Positions 9,190 to 14,109 of a stretch of DNA of 25,804 bases are shown here, piece by piece. Under the pieces are notes generated by a model, which worked only from the letters and a program-made list of their open reading frames with translations, ran no database searches and was not told the origin of the DNA. Within the stretch, counting starts at the first letter, position 1, and the number at the start of each line of letters is the position of its first letter. The position numbers and the translations under genes were made by a program. This stretch comes from a virus, in IMG/VR virus record IMGVR_UViG_3300023184_000469, positions 1 through 25,804 of that record; one strand, 5' to 3'.

Positions 9190-11400
9190 TTATTCTAACA
9201 GACTTGTAATTTCTTTGCGCTTTTCTTCGTCTAGTAGGCTTGTTGCTGGTAATAGTGGAGTAGCAGCAAATAAGGGTTGACCCTTAGATGTTCCCTCTTT
9301 CATTTGAGGGGTAATGTCTAAGTAGCGGATTGTTTCTTTTGATGGACGCTGTGCAGGAATCCCGCTTGCATCCCTAGCGTAATCTGTTGTTATCTGTGTC
9401 TCACCTACGCTTGCGCCATACTTCTTGCCGTACTTATCCAAGAATTTAGGATAAATCTCGTCATAGTATTTCTTCATTCCTTCGCCACCAATATCTAAAC
9501 CTTCGCCACTAATGGTTTTTTTATTGTTCAGCATGATTTCTTTGGCTATGTCTTTACCCACAACTTCAGAAAGATTTTTACCCATAAAATTCTTGATGCT
9601 TTTATCGCTTACATTGTCAACAATCCCATCATTGTTAACACCAATTCGTAAAGATTGACCAGATTTCATATCTAAAGCAACTGATTTTGATTTTTCACCA
9701 GTAGCCATATTAGTTCTACCAATTACATTTATTTCATCAACTTCATTACTTAACTTATATCTACCTGCTTGCTGTTTTCCAGTAGTCAATCCAATGCGCT
9801 CATAGCCATTTTCGGCAGCATACTTAGTTAGTCGCTTTAAAGCTAATTGATACCATGTGTCTTTAAATGGTGCGTCTGGTACTGCATTATCACCGCCCAT
9901 TCCAGCATCTCTATTACGCTCAATAACGCTTCGTTGCTCACTATTTAATTCAGCAAAAGATGGGTCATCATCAAGTTTGTTTTGGTTATACCATTTTTCC
10001 AAACCTTCTTTAGTTTTGTAACCCCGCTCTCTTCCAGCTTGATGCCAATCAGATTGAATTTCCTCAACCAATAGCATTTTTTTACCATCTGCATCAATTC
10101 GGTCATTAACCCTCATATGAGCCAAGATGTTTGGTTGGTCAAAGTGAGATGATTCAAAGTTTTCTGTTTGCCTAGTAACGGGTATTTTTTCTAATTGCTT
10201 GATATATGCTTGCAAATCATCAGCTTTTGATGCAAATGAAATAGCTTTTTCCATATTTCCTGCATTGGCAAATTCATTTTGTAATTCACGCATAGTTTCC
10301 ATGCGTTTTGTATATTGTTGTATTTCATTTGCTGGATTAGGCATTGCTTCTGGCAAAGTCAACAATATCTCACGATAGTTATCTCCACCAGCTAATGTGT
10401 ATTTATCATACTTAGTAGCACCTGCGGCAGAGCCACCAGCATCTAAACCTTCTGAAATTCGTCCAGCTTCTTCGCTTAATGTAAAATATCTTTGTGATGT
10501 TTCTGGTGCGCCTTGAGCTTTTTGATGTTGTTGAGCATAGCGTTCTAATTTTTGGCTAAGTTCTTGCCATCCTTCTGGATTTCTTGGTGTCATTATGCTT
10601 CTTGAGCTCATCCAACTTAACAAATCTTGGCTTGGGGCTGTATTACCACCAAGGGTAACTTCTTTAACATCCACACGATTGTTAGCTAAATAGTCTTGAA
10701 CCTCTTGTTTGGTAACATTAGGTTTGTCTCTTAGGAAGTCATCTAACCCTGTATAAGTTAATTCTTCCTTCTTAACATCAGGTGCTTTCATCAAGTCGTT
10801 AATGAAAGACTGACCAGTTCCTTTGTTTCTTCCAAGATTTAAAGCAGCTTGCTCAGTAGCGGAATAGAAACCAATGTCTGAAACTGGTGCTTGTGGCTTG
10901 GTCTGCAATAGGCTTTCAATAGGCTCTGTTTTGGTGGCCAATAAGCCTTGCTCTGGGGCAACAGCAAACAATGGCTGTGGCACTACCTTGCTCATCATGC
11001 TGTTAGGACGCTGACCAAGCATAGTAGCCGCCAGTTCCTCACCTGCCATTTGACCAATCTTTTGCACACCCCTAACGGCTGGCATAGGATTTAGCGGAAC
11101 AAATGATGCTGCTTGACCTGCTACCTCACCAACTCTTGATGTTGGCGCAAGTGGTAAATCTTTTAAGAACTTTTCTGTTGTGTAAGGAAACTGCGCTGGT
11201 GCTTCATAGCTAACATCACCAAACATTTCTGTCGAACTAGGTGACCTAAGTAAATTAGCAATATCAGCAGGTGCGCCTAGCAAGCCAGCCAAACGTCCTC
11301 GTAAAACATCAATAGGCAAATTGGCAGAATCAGCAGGGCTACCTTGTCTGCGCCTGTTTAACTGCGGATAAAAGCCAAATGCTGCGCCTAAATCTGCCAT
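9190..11400 (-). CDS. 736-aa probable ejected/polyvalent-type virion protein
   Basis: This is a large multi-region protein upstream of the terminase genes. Residues 1-60 contain SPADSANLPIDVLRGRLAGLLGAPADIANLL, a proline-glycine opening common in large phage proteins of this kind. About 190-260 reads as the recurring module GLDDFLRDKPNVTKQEVQDYLANNRVDVKEV. About 430-590 holds ILAHMRVNDR, LLVEEIQSDWHQAGRERGYK and VPDAPFKDTWYQLALKRLTKYAAENGYERIGLTTGKQQAGRY, blocks found in phage large polyvalent proteins. The conserved Glu-rich EEIQSDWHQ core looks enzymatic, but the chemistry is not known. Such proteins are probably packaged in the head and injected with the DNA. No signal peptide is seen. Confidence 0.72.
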   Translation of the reverse strand: MADLGAAFGFYPQLNRRRQGSPADSANLPIDVLRGRLAGLLGAPADIANLLRSPSSTEMFGDVSYEAPAQFPYTTEKFLKDLPLAPTSRVGEVAGQAASFVPLNPMPAVRGVQKIGQMAGEELAATMLGQRPNSMMSKVVPQPLFAVAPEQGLLATKTEPIESLLQTKPQAPVSDIGFYSATEQAALNLGRNKGTGQSFINDLMKAPDVKKEELTYTGLDDFLRDKPNVTKQEVQDYLANNRVDVKEVTLGGNTAPSQDLLSWMSSRSIMTPRNPEGWQELSQKLERYAQQHQKAQGAPETSQRYFTLSEEAGRISEGLDAGGSAAGATKYDKYTLAGGDNYREILLTLPEAMPNPANEIQQYTKRMETMRELQNEFANAGNMEKAISFASKADDLQAYIKQLEKIPVTRQTENFESSHFDQPNILAHMRVNDRIDADGKKMLLVEEIQSDWHQAGRERGYKTKEGLEKWYNQNKLDDDPSFAELNSEQRSVIERNRDAGMGGDNAVPDAPFKDTWYQLALKRLTKYAAENGYERIGLTTGKQQAGRYKLSNEVDEINVIGRTNMATGEKSKSVALDMKSGQSLRIGVNNDGIVDNVSDKSIKNFMGKNLSEVVGKDIAKEIMLNNKKTISGEGLDIGGEGMKKYYDEIYPKFLDKYGKKYGASVGETQITTDYARDASGIPAQRPSKETIRYLDITPQMKEGTSKGQPLFAATPLLPATSLLDEEKRKEITSLLE

Positions 11401-12169: not shown

Positions 12170-12198
12170 ATTATCACATAAAAAAAAAGAGAGAACAA
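12170..12198 (-). promoter_or_regulatory. Putative late promoter overlapping the upstream terminator
   Basis: On the minus strand TTGTTC (12193-12198) is followed after 17 bases by GATAAT (12170-12175), preceded by TGT so that the -10 is extended. The spacer contains the nine-T tract of the terminator. The predicted start near 12163 leaves a leader of about 17 bases for the gene starting at 12146. This would be the start of the head operon. Confidence 0.5.
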
Positions 12199-12206
12199 GT
12201 CTCTCT
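12180..12206 (-). terminator. Rho-independent terminator of the dpdA operon
   Basis: On the minus strand AGAGAGA and TCTCTCT form a perfect 7-bp stem around the loop CTTGT, followed by a run of nine T. It lies 37 bases after the stop of the HNH-type nuclease gene, so it ends the DNA-modification transcript and isolates it from the late genes. Confidence 0.85.
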
Positions 12207-12242: not shown

Positions 12243-12500
12243 CTATCTGAAAAGTTTTGCAAGCGTTAGATTTAAAACGTCCATCTCTGTTAACTTCATA
12301 ACCGCCCACATCCTAGCTGACCCGTGAATTCCGTTATGTGGGCCTTGGTGACAATCTTTGCATAAAGGAATACATAAGTATTGGTTATGCTGGACAATAT
12401 GGTGTGCATCGCTTGGCGGTGAAGCGTCACAGACCCCACAAGGCATTTCTTTAATCTTTGCCAAGTGGAGTCGTTCCCTGTTATTAGGTCTGTTGTTCAT
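12243..12500 (-). CDS. HNH/Ref-like zinc nuclease, 85 aa
   Basis: This small protein has a zinc-finger nuclease core: C21-x2-C24 (PCGVCDA), DAHHI (H33, H34), IPLC (C47), KDCH (C50, H51) and NGIHG. The pattern of two Cys pairs enclosing AHHI and ending in GIHG matches the HNH-type core of the phage P1 Ref nuclease family, which cuts DNA at RecA-made displacement loops. An upstream in-frame codon exists, but ATG 12500 is chosen because the conserved part begins there and overlaps the transporter gene by only 17 bases. It is the last gene of the operon. Recombination or host DNA attack are possible roles. Confidence 0.75.
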   Translation of the reverse strand: MNNRPNNRERLHLAKIKEMPCGVCDASPPSDAHHIVQHNQYLCIPLCKDCHQGPHNGIHGSARMWAVMKLTEMDVLNLTLAKLFR

Positions 12501-12966
12501 TTTGGAACTTTTGCAATAAAAATGACCAAACTGCACCACCAGAAACTTTAGAAATAAACTGAAGCGCAATAATTTCTGGCATCAGAACACCAAATGCAAT
12601 CGTTGGGAAAAGTAGAGAGTCAACGGCAGCACCAGCAGTATTTGAAATATTTGCTCGTTTAATCCATGAGCCTGTGGTTTTTACAAACATAGCCCAATCA
12701 ACTACAGATGCAATTAAGAATGACACGGCAGAAGCTACTGCAATCATTCCAGAGGCAGGATTTAGCCCATAAGTGATTAAGCCAGTTCCAACAATCAAAC
12801 CGCCCATTTGCCACGTTTTAAGTCTGACATGAAGCCAATCTCTAAGCGTTAAATCAAGTCCAATCAAGAAAAAAGCATTTATTGCGGTTACTGATGGCCC
12901 AAATGTAGCAACCAATAGATTTGCGGCAATCATTGCCACGGCATAAGCAATTAAAGCAAAAATCAT
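12484..12966 (-). CDS. PreQ0/queuosine-precursor transporter, VUT (YhhQ) family
   Basis: The 160-residue inner-membrane protein has about five or six hydrophobic helices. It carries family landmarks: RDWLHVRL (about 41-48), LNPASGMIAVASAVSFLIASVVDWAMF (about 68-94), RANISNTAGAAVDSLLFPTIAFG (about 103-125). These are typical of the VUT family, whose E. coli member YhhQ imports the deazapurine preQ0. It is shorter than YhhQ (about 220 residues) but normal for the compact branch. The start overlaps the stop of the QueF-like gene as ATGA, two genes after the DpdA-like gene, which strongly supports a role in supplying base for DNA modification. Confidence 0.86.
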   Translation of the reverse strand: MIFALIAYAVAMIAANLLVATFGPSVTAINAFFLIGLDLTLRDWLHVRLKTWQMGGLIVGTGLITYGLNPASGMIAVASAVSFLIASVVDWAMFVKTTGSWIKRANISNTAGAAVDSLLFPTIAFGVLMPEIIALQFISKVSGGAVWSFLLQKFQNEQQT

Positions 12967-13205
12967 AATTTTCTTTCTGTTTGAATAACAACGCCATGAT
13001 GATTAGCAATCAATTTTTGCTCACCACCAAACTTCTCAAATAATTTATCAGCAATAGACTCATGAAATCCTGATGCAAAATCACCAATTGTTTCTAGTAT
13101 GTCTTCAACAAGTATCTTTTCAATGTGTTTTATTTCTAGTTGATAGGTTATTGGTTTGTTATTTACAGAACATAAAGCAATAAATTTAGTGCTGTACTTA
13201 TTCAT
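12963..13205 (-). CDS. Short QueF-like (tunnelling-fold) protein, possible deazapurine enzyme
   Basis: The 80-residue protein lines up by eye with the core of unimodular QueF, the preQ0 reductase. FIALCSVNNKP (8-18) corresponds to QueF FTSLCPVTGQP with the catalytic Cys (C12 here), VE (33-34) to the VESK motif, and GFHES (46-50) to the substrate-binding FHE. However, the Asp after QP is Ile (I19), and the NADPH motif after VE is replaced by DILETIG. It is therefore unlikely to be a normal reductase and may catalyse another step on the 7-substituent. ATG 13205 is chosen for its ATGA overlap with the DpdA-like gene. It could also be an unrelated T-fold protein. Confidence 0.55.
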   Translation of the reverse strand: MNKYSTKFIALCSVNNKPITYQLEIKHIEKILVEDILETIGDFASGFHESIADKLFEKFGGEQKLIANHHGVVIQTERKL

Positions 13206-13942
13206 AAAAGTGTTTCTTGTTCCATTGGTTGATAAAAATTCCAACATGAGGGTGCGTTGTGCGCTTCAATCCTAAAACGCATGACTTGCGCCCTAGCCTC
13301 TTTTGTTGGCGGTAAATAATTCCCATGCTTCCAATGCACATCAATGCCAACATTTCTTCCAATATTGGTACTATCTGCTGATGAAAATGGTAATTTGGTA
13401 AAGATTGCAGGGTCTAGCATCCTTAAACCATGTAGCTTGCAAGCAGGTCTTCCCATGTCATCACAAACTACCCTCATAGCTTGACCCATCTTGACCCACC
13501 AGTTTGATGTTCCTACTGTGGAAAACTCTCCAGAACTACCAATACAGACTCGCACATAGGTGTTTGAAAGTTGTTCAAGTCTTTCTAAAGATTCGTGCAT
13601 ATGCCAAACTGGTGAACCAAACCATGTCGGAAGTGGACAATCTCTTAGTAAAGCATCGTTGTCAGCTTCTGTTCCATCAATCACATCAGGAATAACCGCA
13701 AAGTCGCACGATGGAACTTTTTTTAGGTTTAATGCCCAATCATAGAAAGGCTGCCAATCAGAAATTGGTTTACCTTGCTTCCAAGCAGAAAATGCACCAT
13801 TGTCTATTGCAAAAGATTGACAAACTTCTATTGCTACAGACAACTGGTCAGAATGAGCAAACGAAACAAACGCATGACCACCTTCTATTGCTTTAACCGC
13901 TACTGTAGCTGGTGTTATTGGAAGTCCGTGATAATGAATCAT
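13202..13942 (-). CDS. dpdA: DpdA-like DNA guanine transglycosylase
   Basis: The 246-residue protein matches the phage DpdA family, TGT paralogues that swap guanine in DNA for a 7-deazaguanine base. Visible blocks are IHYHGLPITP (2-11), a VSFAH segment (26-30), FAIDNGAFSAW (44-54, D47 probably catalytic), FAVIPDVIDG (81-90), PVWHMHESLERL (111-122), CIGSSGEF (133-140), KLHGLRML (169-176) and SSADSTNIGRN (187-197, with D190). It is shorter than tRNA TGT (about 375 residues), as phage DpdA proteins are. It sits in an operon with a preQ0 transporter and a QueF-like gene. The result would be restriction-resistant phage DNA. Confidence 0.88.
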   Translation of the reverse strand: MIHYHGLPITPATVAVKAIEGGHAFVSFAHSDQLSVAIEVCQSFAIDNGAFSAWKQGKPISDWQPFYDWALNLKKVPSCDFAVIPDVIDGTEADNDALLRDCPLPTWFGSPVWHMHESLERLEQLSNTYVRVCIGSSGEFSTVGTSNWWVKMGQAMRVVCDDMGRPACKLHGLRMLDPAIFTKLPFSSADSTNIGRNVGIDVHWKHGNYLPPTKEARAQVMRFRIEAHNAPSCWNFYQPMEQETLL

Positions 13943-14109
13943 GTAATTTCAATGATTACTGGATTTAACAGGATACGAGCATATTCCAATGCTCTCTTTT
14001 CTGCATCATCACCCAATACACATTTTTGATAACGCCACTCAAGTTCATACCATTTTTTGCTTTCAACAGTCCATGCGCCATCAGCGTCTTTTTTAATTCT
14101 TACTCTCAT
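13939..14109 (-). CDS. Hypothetical protein, 56 aa, coupled to dpdA
   Basis: A 56-codon frame begins MRVRIKKDADGAWTVESKKW and ends in VIIEIT. It has an excellent Shine-Dalgarno sequence (AAGGAG, 5 bases before the ATG) and its stop overlaps the dpdA start as ATGA, so it is almost certainly translated and coupled to dpdA. It looks like a small beta-plus-helix protein with a conserved-looking WYELEWRYQKC stretch. No known family was recognised. It might assist the modification enzyme, but that is inferred from position alone. Confidence 0.7.
   Translation of the reverse strand: MRVRIKKDADGAWTVESKKWYELEWRYQKCVLGDDAEKRALEYARILLNPVIIEIT

Follow-up and report, generated by a model that had tools for sequence, protein, structure and literature searches.

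Phages that encode the transglycosylase DpdA without genes for the synthesis of the 7-deazaguanine preQ0, sporadically together with the transporter YhhQ, are known as group 3 of Hutinet et al. 2019 (PMC6884629). In that survey, QueF-L (archaeosine synthase QueF-Like) and other amidotransferases of phages were reported only alongside a complete preQ0 pathway (group 1) or in a group that lacks DpdA (PMC6884629). Here we have analysed a viral contig of 25,804 nt from IMG/VR (IMGVR_UViG_3300023184_000469, hereafter the window) belonging to a small phage of lake type, in which a short DpdA-like guanine transglycosylase, a protein of 80 amino acids (80 aa) and a VUT/YhhQ-like membrane protein are encoded in a compact cassette. 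This cassette shares with group 3 a 9g-type DpdA, the lack of FolE, QueD, QueE and QueC and, as in some members, a YhhQ-type transporter, and it differs from group 3 in adding a tailoring-type protein of the tunnelling fold (T-fold). We consider it probable, at roughly 0.6, that the cassette is a scavenging system for DNA hypermodification, in which a precursor would be imported by VUT, inserted by DpdA and tailored by the small protein.

The clusters of Escherichia phage CAjan and Enterobacter phage EC151 also combine DpdA with a homologous phage preQ0 transporter (PMC8310023), but they encode the complete preQ0 pathway, whereas the window cassette encodes none of it and has the 80-aa protein. 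In addition, the window DpdA is ∼60-70 residues shorter than those of 9g and CAjan. Outside phages, QueF-L of Pyrobaculum calidifontis (PDB 5jyx/5k0p) resembles the small protein in the tunnelling fold, the nucleophilic Cys, the His-Glu pair and the absence of an NADPH motif. In contrast to the small protein, it is longer (109 versus 80 aa), carries a general-acid Asp (Asp28) that is Ile or Val in the small protein, lacks the distinctive C-terminus A-x-H-H-G-V-x-I-x-T-x-R and is paired with a tRNA-type instead of a DNA-type transglycosylase. A QueF-like gene adjoining dpdA is also found in Mycobacterium phage Funsized, whose gp2 ('PreQ0 pathway QueF-like') differs in being a 132-aa protein with an ESKS NADPH-type motif, encoded in a QueC/QueD/QueE/FolE cluster. 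Phage DpdA with YhhQ being already known, what appears to be new is a short DpdA that is combined with a minimal QueF-L-like protein in the absence of preQ0 synthesis, a combination that was not found in the literature searched, one central 2023 paper not being covered by that search. The 2023 paper reportedly described DpdA3 and DpdA4 as well as further phage 7-deazaguanines.

The 246-aa protein is a 9g-type DpdA by sequence

An earlier note on this DNA, made from the sequence letters, had recognised the 246-aa protein as DpdA-like. Profile searches agree with this call, since the protein falls inside the superfamily of tRNA-guanine transglycosylase (TGT) and DpdA: it matched PHROG 887 with an E-value of 6.6e-68, and a profile of 38 DpdA-like relatives matched the DpdA of CAjan at 3.8e-18 and that of 9g at 1.1e-14, both of them enzymes that have been studied by experiment. 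The blocks DNGAFS and SADSTN pointed out in the note are present, and their Asp residues (D47 and D190) are invariant in the 38 diverse sequences and align with D72 and D215 of 9g. H171, which is also invariant, aligns with H196 of 9g, the position that separates DpdA from DpdA2, where this His is absent (PMC6884629). AlphaFold2 modelled the protein as a barrel with a predicted local distance difference test (pLDDT) score of 88. Foldseek ranked generic TIM barrels first for this model and placed arcTGT (1j2b) 24th by E-value, yet with the top query TM-score listed (0.57), and the assignment therefore rests on sequence. On these grounds the protein is a DpdA of the 9g type, for which insertion of a 7-deazaguanine into DNA is predicted.

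PHROG 887 is labelled queuine tRNA-ribosyltransferase and DpdA is a member of the TGT superfamily, both of which would fit an enzyme that acts on host tRNA and tunes translation during infection instead of modifying phage DNA. We regard such a role as very improbable, because the profile that matches the DNA-acting DpdA of 9g and CAjan did not match E. coli TGT significantly, and because D190 of the 246-aa protein is not followed by a Cys-cluster zinc module. Lambdoid and Vibrio phages widely carry DpdA-type relatives of similar length; in the annotation tables of five such records, no gene annotated as transporter- or QueF-like stands beside DpdA.

An 80-aa tunnelling-fold protein probably related to QueF-L

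The family of the 80-aa protein in PHROGs is PHROG 37496, labelled 'unknown function'. From 42 diverse members, AlphaFold2 predicted a beta-beta-alpha-alpha-beta-beta tunnelling fold with a pLDDT of 96.4. When this model was compared with the PDB by Foldseek, the top eight matches were all archaeosine synthase QueF-Like (5k0p/5jyx), the best query TM-score (TMq, 0.85) being that to the covalent thioimide complex 5jyx, and the third match in a viral structure library was a phage protein named archaeosine synthase. The alignment of the family profile to 5jyx scored 25.2, compared with 10.5 ± 1.9 (maximum 15.1) for 60 shuffles. This alignment is colinear and places C12 on Cys21 of QueF-L and H48-E49 on its base-pocket His-Glu pair, and the same positions also align to E. 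coli QueF and to a set of QueF proteins. C12, E34, H48, E49, A52, A67, H69, I74, T76 and R78 are invariant in the 42 members. Bacterial QueF proteins in the same comparison carry an E(S/L)KS-type motif, whereas the NADPH motif E(S/L)K is replaced by VExI in the small protein, where position 36 is Ile or Leu in 42 of 42 members.

The small gene is tightly linked to DpdA

To evaluate linkage independently of DpdA, loci were fetched through the 80-aa protein alone, which yielded 57 new loci. DpdA lay beside the small gene in 56 of them, mostly in the order DpdA then small gene, with the small gene first in 13 loci and VUT between the two once. In IMG/VR, 288 places of the PHROG 37496 family were confirmed. 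A set of 50,697 phage records contained three distinct phages with the small gene, which in all of them adjoins DpdA and is annotated as hypothetical. Small gene and DpdA occur together in Pseudomonas phage Epa33, Microcystis phage Mae-JY30, Rhizobium phage RHph_X2_30 and a Caballeronia prophage. RHph_X2_30 has VUT in addition to this pair, and Acinetobacter phage AB3P2 has DpdA and VUT but lacks the small gene. Prophages gave no host range: when bacterial genomes were scanned genome-wide for the small family, the Caballeronia arvi prophage alone was returned, 399 sampled genomes from its order contained no further case, and the plasmids searched contained none.

The gene order of the cassette recurs across 80 DpdA-selected viral loci, and the median ratios of non-synonymous to synonymous divergence (dN/dS) are 0.05 for DpdA, 0.15 for the small gene and 0.14 for VUT. 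The three genes are under clear purifying selection and, taken together with the recurring order, these low medians indicate that the arrangement is not due to chance. In Epa33 (L004, 5147-9075) a gene for a C-5 cytosine DNA methylase lies directly downstream of the small-DpdA pair, which hints that DNA modification is layered. The DpdA gene of another locus (L142, G054:C1:13887-14604) is broken by stops into two frames and is apparently decayed, and the small and VUT genes are open.

The precursor is most likely taken from the host or imported

The earlier note had recognised no folE, queD, queE or queC in the window. This holds for the window and extends to 20 related contigs of 27-94 kb: models of QueC, QueD, FolE and radical-SAM (queE-type) proteins found nothing in these 21 contigs (25.8-93.8 kb), and the same models detected their targets in 9-14 control genomes. 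None of five complete genomes of isolates of this kind had QueC either. The absence of preQ0 synthesis is strong but not final, as contigs may be fragments. Since no synthesis genes were found, the phage most likely relies on preQ0 that is made by the host or imported.

The VUT/YhhQ transporter proposed in the same note is upheld by a match to Pfam Vut_1 (E = 1.8e-8; 35.3 bits with a cut-off of 27.2) and by a match of the VUT family profile to the annotated preQ0 transporter of CAjan at 4.5e-45, an E-value that is flattered because the CAjan protein is a row of that profile. The match of the profile to E. coli YhhQ (1e-7) is independent. The phage VUT subfamily is shorter, and the protein stays below the NCBI equivalog cut-offs, with 14.9 versus 252 bits for NF008406 (preQ0/preQ1 transporter) and 14.6 versus 50.95 for TIGR00697. 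We therefore describe it as YhhQ-like only, and as a putative importer of preQ0.

A proposed route and the evidence that bears on it

In the route that we propose, VUT would bring preQ0, or some related 7-deazaguanine, into infected cells, and the short DpdA would put it in the place of guanine once the phage DNA has been replicated, generating dPreQ0. Cys12 of the small protein would then attack the nitrile to give a thioimide, with Glu49 and His48 holding the base, and the thioimide would be converted into the final group, most likely the formamidine of deoxyarchaeosine (dG+). Such a modification would probably shield the phage DNA from bacterial restriction enzymes. The analysis establishes how the genes are arranged, to which families they belong, the fold and conserved residues, the linkage and the lack of synthesis genes; the substrate, DNA as the target, the order of the steps, the product and the protection against restriction are inferred. 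With free ammonium, purified QueF-L can turn over the adduct that it forms with preQ0-tRNA but not the one with free preQ0 (PMC5485725), which favours tailoring after insertion and dG+ as the product. Also, dG+ is favoured over reduction because the NADPH motif is missing from the small protein.

Several observations weigh against this scheme. Neither the small protein nor its profile had a usable HMMER match in Pfam, NCBIfam or the PDB sequences, a PDB-wide profile search with the small protein missed QueF-L, and the Pfam QueF model (PF14489) matched none of 17 small-protein members and nothing in the window contig. The sequence similarity to QueF and QueF-L is weak and, given these HMMER results, the kinship with QueF-L is visible by structure and profile-profile comparison only. 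The Asp that acts as general acid/base in both QueF and QueF-L, seven residues after the Cys, is Ile in 36 and Val in 6 of the 42 members, and the chemistry may differ because this residue is replaced in all of them. H69, N15 and D53 are candidates to take its place. Many close relatives have no small gene and others have no VUT, so neither gene is essential to DpdA. Finally, the remaining locus of the linkage analysis (L139, 4001-4240; IMGVR_UViG_3300045972_000372) carries the small gene with no detectable DpdA in a record of 40.9 kb; a small helix-turn-helix-like open reading frame (ORF) precedes the T-fold gene there.

As judged from the alignments and the model, the small protein is probably related to QueF-L and may work like it but fails one defining feature, being neither a standard QueF nor a QueF-L. 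Of the 'short QueF-like' call in the earlier note, the fold and the catalytic Cys and His-Glu stand and the Asp does not, and it is because of this missing general acid that we have not filed the protein as QueF-L. More tentatively, the 80-aa proteins may form a new minimal family of T-fold enzymes acting on dPreQ0 in DNA, with an active site that dispenses with the general-acid Asp and with a product or a nitrogen/water donor possibly unlike those of QueF-L; they could serve as interchangeable tailoring modules and so determine the 7-deazaguanine that is displayed by a scavenging phage.

Loss of an Asp common to QueF and QueF-L suggests altered chemistry and leaves room for a different product, such as dADG formed by nitrile hydration or dPreQ1 formed by reduction. 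Both bases occur in phage DNA, most of the final steps were unassigned in 2021 (PMC6884629; PMC8306585), and Streptococcus phage Dp-1, which has an annotated QueF-L, contains dPreQ1. We nevertheless hold another product to be rather unlikely, as the missing QueF NADPH-binding motif argues against dPreQ1 and the nearest fold is that of the amidinotransferase QueF-L.

The small gene appears to behave as an exchangeable module

Relatives whose DpdA is 94-95% identical to that of the window join DpdA straight to VUT through the same TTATGA junction. In a tree of 92 DpdA sequences, parsimony placed ∼12 gains or losses of the small gene, although strongly supported branches force far fewer; with this limit, the small gene appears to have entered or left the cassette repeatedly. 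The comparison of the window with a related locus, L007, showed synonymous divergence (dS) of 0.24 for DpdA, 0.23 for VUT and 1.24 for the small gene. That is, the silent sites of the small gene (12963-13205 in the window, 4738-4977 in L007) are highly diverged and its neighbours are nearly identical, and this excess in the small gene alone suggests allele exchange of a single gene at the ATGA junctions. The small gene has a G+C content of 29%, compared with 42% for the window.

These data also bear on whether the small protein is a catalyst at all. T-folds bind purines at subunit interfaces, and a non-catalytic partner that holds or delivers preQ0 to the short DpdA, or completes its oligomer, with dPreQ0 as the final base, would agree with the missing Asp and with a small gene that is very closely linked to DpdA in either order. 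The close DpdA relatives with a clean ATGA join to VUT imply that DpdA needs no small protein and, together with the invariant nucleophilic Cys and His-Glu pair, make a purely accessory role unlikely. Under the tailoring scheme, a PHROG family of 'unknown function' and abundant occurrence is now linked to DNA base modification, and many phages may need no more than a scavenged precursor and two or three tiny genes to hypermodify their DNA. The question of which enzyme carries out the last step for each phage 7-deazaguanine can thereby be put to a direct test, since near-identical phages differ by the clean presence or absence of the small gene and isolates carry it.

Short genes of other kinds stand downstream of the small gene in the VUT-less relatives L034 and L059, among them one for a Cys-rich MMCPRCGSETLKVLDTRSN protein (an NrdR-like zinc ribbon by eye) and one for a further HNH-like protein.

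Structure of the locus and neighbouring genes

The features of the cassette are listed in the table below. As the earlier note had described, the DpdA-like, short QueF-like and VUT genes are joined by ATGA overlaps, with an HNH-like gene and then a terminator-like hairpin behind them; the genes lie on the minus strand, and a 56-aa ORF precedes them. The overlaps lie at 13942-13939 (56-aa ORF and DpdA), 13205-13202 (DpdA and small gene) and 12966-12963 (small gene and VUT).

Features of the cassette in the window
Feature	Coordinates	Strand	Evidence
ORF of 56 aa, function unknown, joined to dpdA by ATGA	13939..14109	-	ORF list, ATGA overlap
Short DpdA-like guanine transglycosylase, 246 aa	13202..13942	-	PHROG 887, 9g/CAjan profile matches, AlphaFold2 barrel, invariant residues
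80-aa tunnelling-fold QueF-L-like protein	12963..13205	-	PHROG 37496, AlphaFold2, Foldseek, profile alignment to 5jyx, DpdA linkage
VUT/YhhQ-like membrane protein, 160 aa, proposed preQ0 importer	12484..12966	-	Pfam Vut_1, CAjan and YhhQ profile matches
HNH-like small protein, 85 aa, ATG at 12500	12243..12500	-	PHROG 1588, weak HNH models
Terminator-like hairpin with T tract at operon end	12188..12206	-	Hairpin and folding energy

The longest mechanical ORF of the small gene would start at 13247 and encode 94 aa, and conservation among relatives sets the start at 13205. The 56-aa ORF, for which library searches gave no confident family match, was recognised upstream of DpdA in few near relatives (L010 and L020). 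The HNH-like gene, whose start overlaps the end of VUT by 17 nt, directly follows VUT in some relatives only and is not always part of the cassette. Its product matched PHROG 1588, of unknown function (E = 1e-12), and weak HNH models; the label of Ref nuclease that had been given to it found no support in Pfam and PHROG searches. The hairpin carries an 8-T tail, and its folding energy alone is modestly better than that of shuffles (z = -1.65).

Neither a tRNA nor an Rfam element was found in the window. A 736-aa protein encoded at 9190-11400 has no Pfam domain and, in its second half, a match to a family of very long phage proteins with the label endolysin (PHROG 7348, 8.5e-29). The capsid and portal genes of the contig are of the SU10 type (Pfam SU10_MCP, 5e-101; SU10_portal, 1.1e-211), in line with the podovirus-like character suggested previously.
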